Part shown: positions 23,915 to 30,582 of the stretch, piece by piece | How the letters are laid out: the number at the start of each line of letters is the position of its first letter | How positions within the stretch are numbered: the stretch's first letter is position 1 | Assembly (NCBI GenBank): GCA_902799855.1 | Contig: CADCCA010000006.1 | Location: forward strand, 1 to 34,964 | DNA from: an uncultured Erysipelotrichaceae bacterium | Lineage (GTDB): Bacteria; Bacillota_I; Bacilli_A; RFN20; CAG-826 | DNA length: 34,964 nucleotides | Direction of reading: 5' to 3' | Made by a program: the position numbers and the translations under genes | Notes under the pieces: model-generated | Seen by the model: the letters and a program-made list of their open reading frames with translations, nothing else | The model's database searches: none | Told to the model about the DNA's origin: nothing

Positions 23915-23943
23915 TTGACTATTTGTTTAAAAAATGATAAATA
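23915..23943 (+). promoter_or_regulatory. Promoter of surface locus A
   Basis: -35 TTGACT (23915-23920), 17-base spacer, -10 TAAATA (23938-23943). Transcription would begin near 23950, just upstream of the riboswitch aptamer. The -35/-10 geometry and the TGATAAA around the -10 are shared with locus B. Confidence 0.75.
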
Positions 23944-23950
23944 TATATTC

Positions 23951-24025
23951 GAGAAAAGAGCAAAACTGGAGCAATCCAGTGACGCAAAACTACAGGGTCT
24001 TATAAATAAGATAGCCAGCAACCTC
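23951..24025 (+). promoter_or_regulatory. Cyclic-di-GMP-I (GEMM-I) riboswitch aptamer, locus A
   Basis: It shows the GEMM-I signatures in order: GCAAA (23960-23964); stem ACTGGA / TCCAGT capped by the GNRA tetraloop GCAA; the invariant GACGCAAA (23981-23988); then the second stem CTACAGGGTCTTA / TAAGATAG ending in AGCCAG and CC (to 24023). The tetraloop and ACGCAAA segment form the dinucleotide pocket in the known Vc2 structure. About 100 bases of further structured leader follow before ATG 24129. It controls the TasA-like and adhesin genes of locus A. Confidence 0.92.
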
Positions 24026-24077
24026 AACTTGTTTACGCAGTTGAGGTTTTATATTTTATGAGAGACAGCCAGTTGCC
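24009..24077 (+). repeat. Duplicated 3' strand of the c-di-GMP aptamer, locus A
   Basis: Copy A, AGATAGCCAGCAACC (24009-24023), is the aptamer's own 3' strand. Copy B, AGACAGCCAGTTGCC (24063-24077), repeats it after the first hairpin. AGAC-A-GCC of copy B can pair with GGGTCT of the aptamer's second stem as well as copy A does. Confidence 0.75.
24021..24057 (+). terminator. First terminator-like hairpin of riboswitch A
   Basis: Stem CCTCAACT / AGTTGAGG with a 9-base loop, then TTTTATATTTT. Its 5' arm overlaps the last bases of the aptamer (ACC), so aptamer closure and this hairpin compete. The T-run is interrupted, so termination may be partial. Confidence 0.75.
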
Positions 24078-24126
24078 TTAAAGACGAAAAGGAACGTCTT
24101 TCACAAAGGTGACTGGGATTTTTATT
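24067..24126 (+). terminator. Second terminator-like hairpin of riboswitch A
   Basis: Outer stem CCAGTTGCCTT (24069-24079) / AAGGTGACTGG (24106-24116), 11 pairs including two G-U; inner stem AAAGACG / CGTCTTT; then ATTTTTATT leading to the ATG. The 5' arm is copy B of the aptamer 3' strand. The 3' arm holds AAAGGTGA, the best SD-like sequence before ATG 24129, but 16 bases away. Confidence 0.75.
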
Positions 24127-24128
24127 AA

Positions 24129-25139
24129 ATGAAACAAAGAAGAAGCAGAAATAGTTTAAAAATTATTGCAGCGACTAGCTTGACTATTTTCTCATTGGCT
24201 TCTGTTTTTGTTGCAACTTATGCTTGGTTCTGTGCTAACGAGGAACTCGATAGTAGTGGCATGCAAATCCAAATTTCTAAAGCTTCAGGCAGATTGCAAC
24301 GCGTTTATTTCCATTCATTTGACGCTTCCGCTTCTTCAAATAGCACATTCAAATTTAATAAAGTTCCATTTGCGGAATATGAATATGACTGGGATCAAAA
24401 TACTATTAACGTTGTAGAAAACAATGTCAATTCATGGAGGTTAGGAGATTACTCCTGGACCGAAAAGAACCAATGTATGCTCATTGTTTTTGCGTTTGAT
24501 AAAGAATATACTTCCGCATCACAAGGAGATATGTTTGTTAGAGGCTTTACAGATGTTGGTGGCGATGATTTGGTTACAACTTATTCCGATGGTGGTGAAG
24601 CCTTATCTACAACAGGTGGTGGTTTCTTAGGTGCTAGAGATACCAACGGTACTCCGTTCTATACACTTCCACAAGAAGATATTTATGACGAAAATCATAA
24701 GGATCGTATTTTAAGACGTAGAGAACCAATGCTTGATGGAGAAGGCAACCAAATGTATGACAAGCAAGGTAGACCAAAATATTATGACTACTATGCATTA
24801 AGTTCAGTTGCGACATTCAGTCATACTACTTATGACAGCAGTTTTGATGCTACTTATGCACCAAATGCGACAGGCACAATTGATATTGCTACAAACAATC
24901 TTCAAACAACCGATGCGTTTACAACAATTAAAACCGATACTGACAAATATGTTTTTAATCAAGAGCCATATTTATTCAAATCTGATGGTAACAGCACCGT
25001 TAAATACGTAGCTTTAGTTGTTAATTATTCTCCTGATGCTATTGGTTATATTTATTCTACATATCTTGGCGATAGTGGTCTTAATAGATATGATAGTATT
25101 TTATATTTCACCTGCGATTGGCGATTAGAGGTGTTTTAG
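24129..25139 (+). CDS. Secreted TasA/CalY-like protein with AWF-type signal segment (locus A, first gene)
   Basis: A 336 aa exported protein. A basic N-terminus (KQRRSRNSLK) precedes one hydrophobic segment (about 10-33) ending in VATYAWFCANEEL, a pattern like the SipW-processed signal of TasA/CalY matrix-fibre proteins, where a small aromatic-rich motif follows the helix. The rest is acidic, Thr/Ser/Asn/Gly/Tyr-rich and beta-like, with no enzymatic motif. It has no LPxTG or type IV pilin cleavage motif. It is the first gene after the c-di-GMP riboswitch and ends 1 base before the large adhesin gene. A fibre or adhesin-partner role is inferred from signal type and context; no SipW-type peptidase is in the window. 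Confidence 0.7.
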   Translation: MKQRRSRNSLKIIAATSLTIFSLASVFVATYAWFCANEELDSSGMQIQISKASGRLQRVYFHSFDASASSNSTFKFNKVPFAEYEYDWDQNTINVVENNVNSWRLGDYSWTEKNQCMLIVFAFDKEYTSASQGDMFVRGFTDVGGDDLVTTYSDGGEALSTTGGGFLGARDTNGTPFYTLPQEDIYDENHKDRILRRREPMLDGEGNQMYDKQGRPKYYDYYALSSVATFSHTTYDSSFDATYAPNATGTIDIATNNLQTTDAFTTIKTDTDKYVFNQEPYLFKSDGNSTVKYVALVVNYSPDAIGYIYSTYLGDSGLNRYDSILYFTCDWRLEVF

Positions 25140-25140
25140 T

Positions 25141-28100
25141 ATGAAAAGTAGAAAACCTTTACTCGTCGCTTTAGGATCAACGCTTTTTACCGGCTTGGTT
25201 GCTGTCGGTATTACTATTGCTTGGCTTTCTCCATCTGCTCATATGAGAAATGAAGACAACCCAATTGAAGGCGTTGTGCAAGATAAGTACTATAACTCCG
25301 GTGACGGATTAACATATGATACCGCTTACGAGATTACTCAACCTCGTCACCTTTATAATTTGGCTTGGCTCCAATATTTAGGTTTCTATAACAAAAGCGA
25401 AGGTATTGATAACCACCAATTCTATTTCAAATTAGGCAATAATATTGATATGTCTCAATTCGGTCCAATTCCTCCAATTGGTACCGAAGACAACCCGTTC
25501 GTCGGTAATTTTGATGGACACGGGTACATTATTTCTGGTGTTACCGTGACTAACGATTTCGACGAATATGTCTCTCACCCAAGCGCGATTGATGGCTGGG
25601 ATAATGCAGATAAGAAACAGCCTCATATCCTTGGTCTTTTTGGTATTATCGGTGAATATCCTGATGGTAATAAACCAACAAATTATAGTTCTCAAATTAA
25701 TGAATTCGTCAATACGGGTGTCAGCAACGCTACCATCCAAACAGTAACCAACGACTCATTAATGGGTATTGCGGCTGGTTATGTTAGAGATTCTAATTTA
25801 AATGATGATCATAATGTTTTAGCAAATGTTATCGTTGATGATTCAACTATTTCTCTTCCTTCTTCTGGCGCTACAACATCATATGGTAAAGACGTTTCAG
25901 GAAATAATCTTGAAAATATTTCTGACTACACTTTAGTCGGTTACACAAATAATGTTTCCGATGTTGTTAAAGCTGACGAAACAGTTTACGGAATTAACAT
26001 TGATACGAATATTACATATAGCGCTTCTGAAAGTGGCAATATCGATGGTTGGGGCGGTTCTATTAATATGCTCAACCTATACGATAGAATCGTTGATATC
26101 CGTGATAACCATTCAACCGGCTTAACATCTTTTGACTGGAAGAAAAATCACGTTATTCGTCCAGGCGGTACAAAGAATGTTGCTGGTGATGACACAATAA
26201 TTGTCGCTGATAGTGATGTTGATACAGGTAGTTCTGCCTCTATTAACTTAAGACAATTCAATCGCTCCACAGGCGAAAACTACAAAGCTGGCAATTACAT
26301 GACAGCTCGAAGAGTCAACACTAATGCCCAAAACTATAATTACCTTACTGGGGGTATATATAACGTTTATAATTATCAAAAACTATATCATCACACAGGA
26401 CACGTTATTACTGTTGATGGTACTAACTATTTGACATGCACAAATCCTGCTAATTATGCAGCAACAACTTCTGCTTCTTCAGATACTGCTCTTATTTGGA
26501 CTGTTCCTGCGAGCGGAACTACCGGCAAGATTTACGCAAGATATAACAACATTGATTACTATCTTGCTGTGAACGGAACCTCTGTTATTTTAAGAACAAA
26601 TGCCGCTAATGGCACTACTTGGGAAATCGATAGAGATATCGCCGGCCATGTCCGCTATGTATATAACGGAAACTATTTAACATATGAAAATGGCTGGAAA
26701 ATGGTGGGCTTGCCAACTCTAAGAGAAGAACCAGTTGATCCAGAAGAACCAATTGATCCAGTTGAACCAACAGAACCACAGTTATCCGATTATTCTAGTC
26801 ATGCTAATGAATATCAAATATCAGATGGTGATTACTATCTAAAATATAGCGGCGGCACTGGCGTTTTCTCAACCGGTTATTCGGATAGTTATTGGCATTT
26901 AACAAATCCTAATGGCTCAACAACAAAAATCTATGTTAATGACAATGGCACCATTCGTTATGTTCGTGTTGCAAGCACTACTGGTAGTTCTAATGCTAGT
27001 TTTACCACCACAGAATCTAGTGGTACCACTTGGAGTAAAGGTGGAACAAACCAATTCTATTATCGTTCTGGTAACCGCTATTACTATTTAAATCGTCGCT
27101 ACAATAATAATTTATATGTTACAAGAGGCGGTAATAATGCTGCTCTTAATCTTTCTTATGCGACTTCGTTTACTCTTACACCTATGAGCACAATTCTTTA
27201 TAACGAAGCTCACGAACAATGGGAAACAGACCATGCTGCTTGGGCGACTGCTCATGCTTCATTTCCTGCTGCCCATGCCGCTTGGGAAACTGCCCATGCC
27301 AATTATCTTATCGATCATGCCAACTGGGTAAATGAACGTAATGCTTGGGTTGAAGAAATGGCTGCTTTGCATCCGATTACTTTAGAATCTGCAACAAGAG
27401 ATGGCCCAGATATTGATGCCGTTTATGACAGAACTGAGTATGGAATGGAATACGCATCAGAAAATACATCGTTCTTCCCGTTGAATGTTGTTAAAGATGA
27501 TGAAGAAACACATACTGCCACAACAAATAATATTGCCAATTATCATCCAAAACAAACAAATACTGGTTATATCACAGTCGGATCAACTTTCACACCGACT
27601 GATACTAACTTGCATAGAAACGTTAGTACCATGCGTGTTTCTCGCTATAATGCTGTTGGTAGTACTAGTACCAGTCACCCAGATGGCGGCAATATTCAAC
27701 ACAGCTTCAAAACAGGCGATACTAGCCTCCATGATGTTAAAACGATTAACTCTAGTGGCAATGTTGTTAGCATAACAGATTCGGTTGCTGAAACATTTGA
27801 AAAGTACACTGATACAAAAGCATCGTTCGAAAATATTTTGACTTCTAGTAGTGCTGTTTCTAGCGGGACAAGATATCTATATGGTTTGCACTTTATGGAT
27901 GCCACAATTTCTATGGACCATATTCTTAATGCTGACTGGGTCAATATTGGTGGCGTTCAAAAAACCAACTATGATTTACCAGTCAACGGTATTGACTTCA
28001 ATTTAAAAGAAGCTGGTTTTATTAATTTCTTTGCCGGTGCTTATTTCAGTGATGAAGTTAATTCATTCTTCTCTTTGCATAAAGTTGTTAGAAGCGGTAA

Positions 28101-28470
28101 TACAATCACGAATATTCTTGAGATTGAAGAAATTCTTAAGGATGCTACTACAACAGCAAAGAACCATTCATACGTTTATAAATTGAAAGATAAAAATGGA
28201 AATACTACATACTCATGCCCATATTCTCTTAACGCTCAAGGAACCAAAACTTCTTTGGTAAATGGCAAAGACCCAGAAGCTAATGATTTAACTTATTCTC
28301 AATTACCAAGTGGATACAAGGCTGCTGGATCCTCATGCTTCTCAACAAGCCAAATTAAAATCGATAGTGATATTACTAGTAATTTTGAATATTGCTTCTA
28401 TTTTGAAATCCCAATGATAAGTTCGTCACAGAAGAGAATTCATATCAATACCCTGTTGGTGTTGCTTTAG
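25141..28470 (+). CDS. Large GLUG-type beta-rich surface protein, 5' part (frameshifted, locus A)
   Basis: 1109 aa to a premature stop. An N-terminal membrane segment (about 5-30, ending ITIAWLSPS) is followed by a beta-helix-like module: DGLTYDTAYEITQPRHLYNL, FYFKLGNNIDM, NFDGHGYIISGVTV and GLFGII, characteristic of GLUG-type adhesins. Next are two Tyr/Asn/Thr-rich beta modules (about 400-520 and 560-685) joined by a Pro-Glu linker (PVDPEEPIDPVEPTEP). Seven His/Trp heptads follow (residues 690-738), then another beta-rich region. The last about 19 residues after FYFEIP are out of frame; the true reading continues at 28413 in the -1 frame to 29303, for about 1387 aa. RBS AGAGGTG overlaps the end of the previous gene. 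It is paralogous to the protein at 32118. Confidence 0.75.
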   Translation: MKSRKPLLVALGSTLFTGLVAVGITIAWLSPSAHMRNEDNPIEGVVQDKYYNSGDGLTYDTAYEITQPRHLYNLAWLQYLGFYNKSEGIDNHQFYFKLGNNIDMSQFGPIPPIGTEDNPFVGNFDGHGYIISGVTVTNDFDEYVSHPSAIDGWDNADKKQPHILGLFGIIGEYPDGNKPTNYSSQINEFVNTGVSNATIQTVTNDSLMGIAAGYVRDSNLNDDHNVLANVIVDDSTISLPSSGATTSYGKDVSGNNLENISDYTLVGYTNNVSDVVKADETVYGINIDTNITYSASESGNIDGWGGSINMLNLYDRIVDIRDNHSTGLTSFDWKKNHVIRPGGTKNVAGDDTIIVADSDVDTGSSASINLRQFNRSTGENYKAGNYMTARRVNTNAQNYNYLTGGIYNVYNYQKLYHHTGHVITVDGTNYLTCTNPANYAATTSASSDTALIWTVPASGTTGKIYARYNNIDYYLAVNGTSVILRTNAANGTTWEIDRDIAGHVRYVYNGNYLTYENGWKMVGLPTLREEPVDPEEPIDPVEPTEPQLSDYSSHANEYQISDGDYYLKYSGGTGVFSTGYSDSYWHLTNPNGSTTKIYVNDNGTIRYVRVASTTGSSNASFTTTESSGTTWSKGGTNQFYYRSGNRYYYLNRRYNNNLYVTRGGNNAALNLSYATSFTLTPMSTILYNEAHEQWETDHAAWATAHASFPAAHAAWETAHANYLIDHANWVNERNAWVEEMAALHPITLESATRDGPDIDAVYDRTEYGMEYASENTSFFPLNVVKDDEETHTATTNNIANYHPKQTNTGYITVGSTFTPTDTNLHRNVSTMRVSRYNAVGSTSTSHPDGGNIQHSFKTGDTSLHDVKTINSSGNVVSITDSVAETFEKYTDTKASFENILTSSSAVSSGTRYLYGLHFMDATISMDHILNADWVNIGGVQKTNYDLPVNGIDFNLKEAGFINFFAGAYFSDEVNSFFSLHKVVRSGNTITNILEIEEILKDATTTAKNHSYVYKLKDKNGNTTYSCPYSLNAQGTKTSLVNGKDPEANDLTYSQLPSGYKAAGSSCFSTSQIKIDSDITSNFEYCFYFEIPMISSSQKRIHINTLLVLL
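27208..27354 (+). repeat. Seven consecutive 21-base (7-residue) AHAxW repeats
   Basis: Translated in frame, the units are AHEQWET, DHAAWAT, AHASFPA, AHAAWET, AHANYLI, DHANWVN, ERNAWVE. His is at position 2 (six of seven units) and an aromatic residue at position 5 (all seven). This is a heptad array, so probably a helical rod or coiled coil between beta modules of the adhesin. Confidence 0.85.
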
Positions 28471-29303
28471 TTAGCATTCCAGATATCGGAGACATCGGAA
28501 CGAACGCTACTGTCATCAATGTTGACGCTTTGATTGATGATTCTGATTCTGCTTGTATGGTTATTGAGGCCACGGCTACAGGTGATTATGGCATTGATAG
28601 AAATACCGTTGATAATAACAACGATGATGTTGCCTTATCGCGACATAATCAGACGTTGGCGCCACCTGTTTACGCTGGTGATAACATTACAAAGGTTCAC
28701 GAAGAAGGCGACTCTGCAAATATCGCGCCACGATCTATTACCCATAGTAATTTCACGATCAAGAGGGTGACTTATTACGATTACATCGTTAACGCAGACT
28801 CCCTTTACGTTACTACTGTTACTGATAGATCAGATGGCTTAAGAACCATTGTTCAATCTTTATATAATGGTGATTCAGTTGATTCAAAAAAACTTGTTGC
28901 AACATATACTTATGACGGCACAAATGCAACAGCTGCTCAACTTGCCAGCATGAAGATTTACAACAGTGACAACCATGGTATTAAGTTCACAGTTGATCAA
29001 TTAACCGATAAACAAAGCGGCTTAGTGATTGCTGACAATAAGATGCCAAGCAATGTTGTAGTCACGTTCAAATTATTCTTGAACGGGTCAAGCGAGTTCG
29101 ATCCATGTCCGGTGTTAATCGCCACAGTTGATGGTTCTGTTAGCACAAGTAAGAACTACTTGTTTGATAGTTACAAGTTCGAATTAACATCTGAAAACAA
29201 TGGATCAGTAATTAAGGTCACTGTTTGGGACGGCACTCATGAAGTTTACTTCGCAACCTATGCTGTAACTGGTGCGCCGCAAACAATTACAATCGCATTG
29301 TAA
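28407..29303 (+). pseudogene. 3' part of the locus A surface protein, out of frame by -1
   Basis: The frame is open from 28407 after a TGA and reads NPNDKFVTEENSYQYPVGVA, a natural continuation of FYFEIP in the upstream frame. Adding one A to CCAATG near 28411-28416 (giving CCAAATG) would join the two into one protein reading FEIPNDKF. The first ATG in this frame is 28557, with no RBS, so independent translation is unlikely. The fragment holds about 295 residues of beta-rich sequence ending GAPQTITIAL. Whether this is a real mutation, phase variation or a sequencing error cannot be told from one sequence. Confidence 0.75.
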
Positions 29304-29520: not shown

Positions 29521-29528
29521 TATTTAGA

Positions 29529-29601
29529 GAGAAAAGAGCAAAACCGGAGTAATCCGGCGACGCAAAACTATAGGGTCTCATGAAAGATAGCCAGCAACCT
29601 C
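29529..29601 (+). promoter_or_regulatory. Cyclic-di-GMP-I (GEMM-I) riboswitch aptamer, locus B
   Basis: Same layout as at 23951: GAGAAAAGAGCAAAA, a stem CCGGA / TCCGG capped by the GNRA loop GTAA, GACGCAAAAC, AGGGTCT and AGATAGCCAGCAACC. The first stem differs from locus A by compensated changes (ACTGGA/TCCAGT versus ACCGGA/TCCGGC-type), which supports a functional fold. It precedes the three genes of locus B. Confidence 0.92.
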
Positions 29602-29653
29602 AATTGTGCAAACGATTGGGGTTTTATAATCTTCAAAAAGATAGCCAGTTGCC
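29585..29653 (+). repeat. Duplicated 3' strand of the c-di-GMP aptamer, locus B
   Basis: Copy A AGATAGCCAGCAACC (29585-29599) and copy B AGATAGCCAGTTGCC (29639-29653) share their first ten bases and differ at three positions. The distance between copies is 54 bases in both loci. Confidence 0.78.
29596..29632 (+). terminator. First terminator-like hairpin of riboswitch B
   Basis: Stem AACCTCAAT / ATTGGGGTT with a 10-base loop, then TTTATAATCTT. The 5' arm overlaps the 3' end of the aptamer as in locus A. Confidence 0.7.
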
Positions 29654-29702
29654 TTAGTGATATGTAATATCACTACTATATTAGGCGGCTGGCATTTTAT
29701 TT
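29644..29702 (+). terminator. Second terminator-like hairpin of riboswitch B
   Basis: Outer stem GCCAGTTGCCT (29644-29654) / AGGCGGCTGGC (29683-29693), 11 pairs with two G-U; inner stem GTGATA / TATCAC; then ATTTTATTT. The 5' arm is copy B of the aptamer strand. ATG 29710 follows with no SD at normal spacing. Confidence 0.75.
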
Positions 29703-29709
29703 ACAGTTT

Positions 29710-30582
29710 ATGAAAAATAAAAGGATTGCGACAAGACTAAAAATTGTGGGTGCGACATTGACCGCAATCTTTTCCTTGTTCTCAGTCTTTACTGCAACTT
29801 ATGCTTGGTTTGCCGCTAATAAAGAAGTTTCTGTGACTGGAATGTCTGTTAAAGTCAAAGCTTTAGAAGGCATTGAGTTCAATTTATATTATTTAGACTA
29901 TTTCGGGATTAGAAATGGTGCTGGTTATAAGGATGGCAATTACGATACAGTTGCCCATTCTTTTGCAGGCTATGAGTTAGCGGCCGCTAATCCAGTTTTC
30001 AAAGAGGTCAATTTTGATACTGATGGTACTGTGATTGATGATCCTGATTACAATTTAGATCCAACTAGTATCAATCATTTATGGCCAAATCATAAACTCA
30101 CTTACGCTATTGAATTAACTGGTGGCACATTACATTCTTTCAATTTGGATTCATGGGGTGAAATAACTTCACCAAGCGTTCTCACTAGAATCGATGATGA
30201 AGATGTTGAAATCCATCTTTCCTGGGCTATCAATATCTATGGCGGAGCCTATTATGTCACTAATACTGGTGAAGAAAATGTCCTTGCTGATATCTCCACT
30301 GGTTTTGCTTCATATATAGCAGACAATACCGTTGAAGATAAGTTCCTTTATAGTGAATCCAATATGGCGCCAGATGAAAAGCCAGCGATTAATATTGTTG
30401 ATTCCATCTCTGGTTCCGCTGGTGGTTCTACACGTGTAATCTTGTATTTCTCCATCGAATTTTCCGATGATAGCAGTACTTACTATTCATATAACAATCC
30501 GTATTATACGAAAGACGAATTAGGAAATAGCAATTGCTACGAAAAACTTTCCTTAACCGATCTTTCTTTCAAATTGTCATAG
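29710..30582 (+). CDS. Secreted TasA/CalY-like protein with AWF-type signal segment (locus B, first gene)
   Basis: A 290 aa paralogue of the protein at 24129. The N-termini match closely: a basic start, LKIVGATLTAIFSLFSVFTA as membrane segment (about 10-30), then TYAWFAANKEV and a GMSVKV strand. The remainder is acidic and beta-rich, without cysteines in the exported part except one near the end, and without known catalytic motifs. This is the layout of TasA/CalY-type matrix subunits that are processed by a SipW-like peptidase and assemble into fibres; that assembly is an inference. First gene after riboswitch B. Its stop overlaps the RBS AGGAGGGG of the next gene. Confidence 0.72.
   Translation: MKNKRIATRLKIVGATLTAIFSLFSVFTATYAWFAANKEVSVTGMSVKVKALEGIEFNLYYLDYFGIRNGAGYKDGNYDTVAHSFAGYELAAANPVFKEVNFDTDGTVIDDPDYNLDPTSINHLWPNHKLTYAIELTGGTLHSFNLDSWGEITSPSVLTRIDDEDVEIHLSWAINIYGGAYYVTNTGEENVLADISTGFASYIADNTVEDKFLYSESNMAPDEKPAINIVDSISGSAGGSTRVILYFSIEFSDDSSTYYSYNNPYYTKDELGNSNCYEKLSLTDLSFKLS

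Follow-up and report, generated by a model that had tools for sequence, protein, structure and literature searches.

One aptamer 5′ half with two 3′ halves and two terminator-like hairpins in c-di-GMP-I type leaders

Two leaders in the window (the whole stretch of DNA that was analysed, 34,964 nucleotides from a bacterium of gut or rumen) combine a single c-di-GMP-I type aptamer 5′ half with two successive 3′ halves, copy A and copy B, which run into the terminator-like hairpins H1 (T1) and H2 (T2), respectively. What the sequences show directly is that both 3′ halves and both hairpins exist and are conserved, and that copy B plus H2 resembles single-copy switches. On balance, we favour an ON switch of the c-di-GMP-I type in which the one 5′ half would antiterminate T1 via copy A, would be handed to copy B, and would then antiterminate T2; the ligand, termination at the hairpins, and the hand-off are what we infer.

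With cmscan at default filters, RF01051 (gathering score 35 bits) matches leader 1 at 23949–24026 (51.9 bits) and leader 2 at 29527–29602 (45.5 bits), in both cases with copy A as 3′ strand. The features of the two leaders are as follows.

23951..23953, + strand: P1 5′ strand (GAG) of leader 1; its partner is the CTC ending copy A or the CTT ending copy B
23954..24001, + strand: aptamer 5′ half of leader 1, from the RF01051 alignment and the alignment of the double-copy loci
23959, + strand: G20-equivalent base (A) of leader 1, part of the 5′ half
23965-23980, + strand: P2 with GCAA tetraloop of leader 1, part of the 5′ half
23988-24001, + strand: P3 5′ strand of leader 1, part of the 5′ half
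24009..24023, + strand: copy A, first 3′ half of leader 1 (AGATAGCCAGCAACC); RF01051 match, 51.9 bits, default filters
24020..24058, + strand: H1, terminator-like T1, of leader 1 (−13.1 kcal/mol, z −5.28); main stem 24022-24046, U-tract from 24047, with AA 24020-24021 and the first U's extending the stem
24063..24077, + strand: copy B, second and canonical 3′ half of leader 1 (AGACAGCCAGTTGCC); RF03167 alignment, 14-mer found in 6 of the 83 single-copy loci defined below
24069..24123, + strand: H2, terminator-like T2, of leader 1 (−22.7 kcal/mol, z −5.33; pairing count); 5′ arm 24069-24077 (copy B), inner hairpin, 3′ arm 24108-24116, U-run 24119-24123
24129..25139, + strand: presumed controlled gene of leader 1, an ORF of 336 aa, predicted secreted, with an N-terminal ATYAWF segment
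29527-29702, + strand: leader 2 as a whole, same layout as leader 1
29529..29599, + strand: GAG (29529-29531), 5′ half and copy A (29585-29599) of leader 2; RF01051 match, 45.5 bits, default filters
29598..29633, + strand: H1, T1, of leader 2; main stem 29598-29621, tail 29622-29633
29639..29653, + strand: copy B of leader 2 (AGATAGCCAGTTGCC); RF01051 at 29527-29656, 52.9 bits, copy B as 3′ strand
29644..29702, + strand: H2, T2, of leader 2 (−27.7 kcal/mol, z −5.85; pairing count); 3′ arm 29684-29693, tail to 29702
29710..30582, + strand: presumed controlled gene of leader 2, an ORF of 290 aa with a similar N-terminus (ATYAWF segment)

Neither presumed controlled gene (336 aa, 290 aa) gave a Pfam match up to E 0.1. 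The ORFs between the leaders (25141-28470 and 28530-29303) lie in different frames and may be one interrupted long gene. By eye, TTGACT (leader 1) and a TGNTA motif precede GAG at similar spacing across the double-copy loci (23915-23953 and equivalents), a spacing that would place the transcript start near P1; a promoter scan of leader 1 returned no match.

The copies in leader 1 are spaced 54 bases apart and identical at 11 of 15 positions. When the downstream stretch was dinucleotide-shuffled 5000 times, 18 shuffles did equally well. In leader 2 they start at 29585 and 29639, likewise 54 nt apart, with 12 of 15 positions identical, and only one of 5000 shuffles did as well. A chance repeat is ruled out by the shuffles together with recurrence in 23 loci, and the observation of the initial annotation that the aptamer 3′ strand returns 54 bases on is thereby confirmed. 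The same holds for its assignment of the 5′ arms, copy A's end to H1 and copy B to H2, with which the folds of leader 1 agree. Copy A's AACC is paired in H1; when this hairpin was folded without its first bases, the energy was −5.3 (z −1.77). H1 of leader 2 (folded as 29597-29631) reaches −13.6 kcal/mol (z −5.29). Among the 23 double-copy loci, the 5′ arm of H1 includes the end of copy A in every case, and the 5′ arm of H2 is copy B, with a U-tract, in 20.

Five or six U's occur among the first eight bases of the T1 tail in 23/23 loci, and the U-tract is interrupted in the loci listed (e.g. UUUUAUAU). A simple terminator scan, with a rule of loops of 3–8, lists neither H1 nor H2 in either leader, so the hairpins are called terminator-like from stem and U-tract only. 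Two such U-tract hairpins thus follow one aptamer (H1 in 23/23, H2 in 20/23), the layout of a dual terminator, at which transcription would presumably end. No second 5′ half lies between the 3′ strands: the 43 nt from copy A to the AGCC of copy B consist of H1 and a short spacer in both leaders, and neither leader is a tandem riboswitch with two complete aptamers. A hairpin in the spacer before copy B was discarded as a feature; it can form in 23/23 loci, but also in 0.75 of shuffled spacers. In three of the 23 loci (L054, L060 and L136) the second hairpin lacks the terminator arm and the U-tract. The hairpin predicted on copy B in L054 and L136 takes in a GGTAATG close to the start codon, so in these two the second check may act on translation. 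Two of the three, L054 (2670-2774) and L060 (2545-2648), also carry a COG3943 RNA (RF02941; 107 and 99 bits) about 1 kb from the riboswitch.

The double-copy loci were collected in two ways. A pattern scan of genome contigs gave 45 loci, 14 of which were judged doubles by eye, all in MAGs titled Bacilli, Erysipelotrichaceae or Bacillales. The 20 doubles behind a covariance model (R1) included 18 from genomes that were then searched with it. Across the family R1 returned 252 matches in 106 of 224 genomes, with 21 matches in 14 genomes at 130 bits or more and the next best at 86.9; three of these 21 genome doubles, two from G125 and one from G105, had not been used in training. An order sample of 279 genomes, overlapping the family set, contained the same 21 doubles. 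In a class sample of 395 genomes, only the two of G001 scored at least 130 bits among the R1 matches listed. There are 23 doubles in all, the two of the window and 21 from 14 related genomes. The YchF of the window is 94–97% identical in 11 of the 14 double-bearing genomes and 79% identical in G002 and G011, and G005 gave no full-length YchF match. The doubles are closely related, and their counts are not counts of independent events. In G040 (YchF 79%) R1 found nothing over 83 bits.

Several weaker candidates were rejected as doubles. The wide-span weak R1 matches L192, L193, L196 and L137 are singles, L194, L195, L197 and L198 are complete tandem aptamers, and L138 is a single with a possible further strand. 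In L138 (G183:C16), a single-copy riboswitch, this strand, AGATAGCCGGCTAC, comes after the terminator-like hairpin, and a GTAGC immediately preceding the start codon is a potential partner for it; it may be an independent second 3′ half that would act on translation. In the singles L047 and L058, the start of the controlled ORF itself seems to contain the arm that pairs with the aptamer 3′ strand (GTAGCTGGC).

Single- and double-copy versions coexist in the same genomes, which makes the effect of the second 3′ half directly measurable. One gene family, whose products start with MYD or MYE and are K- and R-rich, is associated with doubles in certain genomes; elsewhere its members have singles whose T2 is similar. 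In many leaders of this type, doubles and singles (e.g. L106, G001:C4:25733-25870 plus flanks), a stretch of the H2 loop such as GAAATTAAA is complementary to the T2 U-tract region (TTTAATTTC); by eye the two seem to change together between loci, and the motifs TGGATGATAGGC and TTGGGACA recur. A pseudoknot across T2 is possible in these leaders. Four loci of this type scanned with Rfam (L104, L121 and L126 among the leaders looked at) showed no other family at gathering score.

The comparison with single-copy relatives identifies copy B as the canonical 3′ strand. For this purpose 83 singles were used, defined as fits to the motif G[AG][CT][AT]GCC[AG]GNNNCC with one 3′ strand, and other aptamers were dropped. 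The 14-mers of copy B are present among these singles for 22 of the 23 doubles, those of copy A for none. A profile derived from the singles gives copy B 22.0–27.8 bits and copy A 16.3–16.6, the lowest single scoring 22.0. In L046 and L068, among other singles, the only 3′ strand is of the B type and also forms the 5′ arm of a hairpin with a U-tract. The copy reported by Rfam depends on the filters: doubles come with copy A under default filters, with copy B in 17 of 20 (copy A in L054, L062 and L075) when 59 kb were searched at once with E-value filters, and with copy B in all 20 genome doubles given (of 21 known) when short stretches were searched with the laxest filters. Seven of these 20 copy B picks are RF01051 matches above the gathering score (50.8–59.7 bits); in the other 13 the best model is RF03167 (c-di-GMP-I-GGC), at 42.9–53.2 bits and hence below its gathering score of 59. 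With permissive filters, leader 1 likewise matches RF03167 at 23950-24081 with copy B (51.2 bits, gathering score 59), and leader 2 matches RF01051 with copy B.

Wherever RF01051 scores both copies of a locus, copy B is higher (8/8; 50.8–59.7 and 52.9 bits against 45.5–50.1 for copy A), and the permissive alignments take copy B as 3′ strand and treat copy A with H1 as an insert. The fit of copy B to the family consensus, which the initial annotation proposed, is supported. Its proposal that either 3′ half can serve as partner of the 5′ half agrees with the default and permissive alignments; in leader 2 the suggested RF01051 scan gave 52.9 bits for copy B and 45.5 for copy A. The permissive alignments also match its picture of copy B pairing, in which H2 would be opened and H1 would sit as a side branch in P3. 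Based on the B-type strand in the singles, the profile scores and the Rfam preference under lax filters, copy A with H1 looks like an addition, an extra 3′ half with its own terminator-like hairpin placed inside an ordinary riboswitch, with the direction of the change a matter of inference. The initial annotation had the 5′ half choosing between the two copies. Both halves are indeed pairable; copy B is the ordinary strand and copy A a modified extra. In our judgement, serial checking is more probable than free selection between the halves.

Both copies are conserved beyond the needs of their hairpins. AGATAGCCAGYAACC is found in copy A of all 23 doubles, and copy A's AGATAGCCAGYAA, of which the final AA alone can join H1, has two forms in the 23. 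In copy B, the AGA outside H2 is invariant in the doubles. By comparison, the mean pairwise identity is 0.66 for the distal part and loop of H1 and for the 45 nt after copy B, and 0.76 for the T1 tail with the spacer. Copy B's GCCAGUUGCC is identical in all 20 loci with a T2 arm, whereas 11 forms of the partner arm occur, as though something other than this arm constrained copy B through pairing. Of the H1 pairs, 98.8% are retained in 20 sequences, and at one pair both bases have changed.

For P1, the doubles have GAG in 23/23, CTC at copy A in 23/23, and CTT (20/23) or CTA (3) at copy B. The second and third P1 pairs occur in 65% and 60% of the singles against 44% in shuffled ones (sd 5), which supports the P1 register. 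The P3 pairs with copy B are nearly complete and nearly invariant in the doubles. No covariation of the P3 5′ strand with copy B was seen within the doubles, where this strand hardly varies, and because of this near-invariance covariation neither proves nor disproves the pairs. In the form with copy A, 40% of the cells of helix 47-49/77-79 are paired. Pair counts use the Rfam register; R1 places some pairs at the base of P3 in another. Alignment position 47, an A, pairs with U in 83/83 singles and 23/23 copies B and faces A in 23/23 copies A, so that the pair 47-133 of every single is broken with copy A. Non-standard pairs at positions 48 and 132 occur in 25 of the 83 singles. Since the 47-133 pair is missing, copy A may bind ligand poorly or not at all, and the pairing of position 47 with copy B only is a possible toehold.

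The same defect would be expected if only the 5′ half with copy B worked as an aptamer, and copy A with H1, within the P3 loop, acted independently of ligand as an attenuator or pause hairpin that slows the polymerase so that ligand binds before T2. The scores of copy A below those of every single, the interrupted U-tract of T1 and the Rfam preference for copy B in 20/20 loci under the most permissive filters are equally in line with such a role. Still, a mere hairpin needs neither copy A's AGATAGCCAG, which lies outside H1 and is the same in 23 loci, nor the GAG/CTC pairing kept in 23/23, and we consider this explanation unlikely, if worth serious attention.

The preferred reading, a switch that checks twice, was examined with ViennaRNA energies, which exclude ligand, tertiary contacts and kinetics. 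With P1 imposed, aptamer A is worse than H1 at T1 by a median of 12.4 kcal/mol (6.7 to 15.4). Once copy B is out, B with H1 is better than A by a median of 10.5 (2.2 to 13.8) in 23/23 loci, and in computed energy the hand-off between the two decisions is therefore downhill throughout. At T2, B with H1 is worse than H1 with H2 by a median of 12.8 (3.3 to 20.0; 22 loci). In the median locus, about 13 kcal/mol contributed by ligand and tertiary contacts would be enough for either decision. When P1 was not imposed, the median gain of the hand-off was 2.4 kcal/mol, with A lower in 5/23, and the P3 core of copy A and H1 were compatible. P3 with copy A clashes with H1 via P1 and the C92-equivalent base and not via the P3 core. 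At full length B with H1 and A with H2 are about equal (median −0.5 kcal/mol, B with H1 lower in 11/22). Read-through at T2 is not predicted by thermodynamics, and the full-length outcome would be kinetic, as the two ligand-competent states are nearly equal.

The following sequence of events would account for these features. As RNA polymerase nears T1, ligand would keep the 5′ half on copy A and P1, and H1 would be blocked. After T1 has been passed and copy B has emerged, H1 and copy B would jointly displace copy A; the 5′ half would be handed to copy B, with H1 as a side branch of P3. The re-formed canonical aptamer would block H2 and the gene would be transcribed. Conversely, with no ligand H1 would stop most transcripts and H2 the escapers. 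More tentatively, and short of calling it probable, we suggest that toehold strand displacement during transcription passes the 5′ half from a weakened copy A to the canonical copy B, that the sensor is read twice, at T1 and T2, and that leakage is the product of two read-through rates. If true, duplication of half an aptamer would have produced a proofreading, AND-in-time riboswitch. Splitting one sensor and using it again for a second decision would be a new way of making a genetic switch sharper with only one aptamer.

The near-equality of A with H2 and B with H1 at full length would also suit an ordinary dual terminator, in which the ligand acts on T1 alone and T2 remains closed or is governed by another factor. 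According to the available excerpts of PMC11218506, Bc1 of Bacillus thuringiensis, a single c-di-GMP-I aptamer followed by two terminators at a distance of 28 bp from each other, behaves in this way: T1 unfolds with ligand, T2 remains almost intact and masks the response. In the present loci, however, the 5′ arm of T2 is the canonical aptamer 3′ strand, and the same strand and hairpin are the expression platform of singles such as L046 and L068, which makes a ligand-blind T2 improbable. We give still less credence to an opposing switch, in which ligand on copy A frees copy B and H2 forms, for an OFF or banded response rather than ON. A and H2 are compatible, and B with H1 is the lower state in only 11 of 22 loci; but the 3′ arm of H2 is not yet made as copy B emerges, when B with H1 is favoured in 23/23 (P1 imposed), and if passing T1 needs ligand, strong expression would result under no condition. 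That the arrangement is a neutral remnant, left after a tandem duplication was stripped of the second 5′ half, is very hard to credit, although complete tandem c-di-GMP-I aptamers exist in the class (L194, L195, L197-L203), as it is kept in 23 loci including G002 and G011, and both copies are near-invariant while loops diverge.

The ligand would be c-di-GMP, cGAMP or both. The RF01051 gathering score of 35 bits is exceeded with copy A in both leaders (51.9 and 45.5) and with copy B in leader 2 (52.9). The P2 tetraloop is GCAA in leader 1 and GTAA in leader 2, and AGCC occurs in both copies of both leaders; a GNRA loop and its P3 receptor are thus present at the level of sequence, as distinct from the tertiary contact itself. 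The G20-equivalent base, which we take to be the base before GCAAA, is A rather than G in 20/23 doubles, including both leaders of the window, and in 54/83 singles. G20, A47 and C92 are named as key bases of Vc2 in the excerpts of PMC11218506, and GEMM-I with G20A is cited in connection with 3′,3′-cGAMP in those of PMC6274999. The A at this position makes sensing of c-di-GMP in particular less likely, and the RF01051 assignment rests on score. GGDEF domains are encoded in 14/14 genomes with doubles.

Compared with single-terminator c-di-GMP-I riboswitches (GEMM-I, RF01051), the aptamer is the same and copy B with H2 resembles the platform of single-copy relatives; what differs is that the P3 loop contains an additional 3′ half and an additional terminator-like hairpin, and that the G20-equivalent position is A in 20/23. 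c-di-GMP-I aptamers with a long P3 insert before GATAGCCAGTTGCC were also seen in Lachnospiraceae (L025, L027), a natural precedent for a large insert in P3. Partially double T-boxes have a duplicated terminator/antiterminator behind one sensor. They likewise make two serial terminator decisions, for another RNA and ligand, and it is the antiterminator that is duplicated there, not half of a small-molecule aptamer. Searches of the open-access literature listed no paper on them, and the excerpts of PMC2494555 contain nothing on partial doubles.

Searches of the open-access literature for a half-duplicated aptamer (tandem or two terminators, overlapping aptamers) gave no published match, and those for dual terminators gave Bc1 only. 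Whole c-di-GMP riboswitches are known in tandem (PMC12452182, in excerpts), and such tandems, including L194, L195 and L197-L203, likewise have two 3′ strands and two terminators in series; they consist of two complete aptamers, whereas the second 5′ half is absent here. The closest published system, as far as the excerpts describe it, is the dual-terminator c-di-GMP-I riboswitch Bc1, likewise one c-di-GMP-I aptamer followed by two intrinsic terminators (here terminator-like hairpins); by description rather than sequence, the excerpts of PMC11218506 mention no second aptamer 3′ strand. Strand exchange, much less known than other riboswitch mechanisms according to the excerpts of a review (PMC10907184), likewise involves mutually exclusive helices with a common switching strand. 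In those riboswitches the competition is between aptamer and expression platform; in the present leaders there would also be competition between the two forms of the aptamer, and the leaders would offer a compact natural case of strand exchange during transcription.
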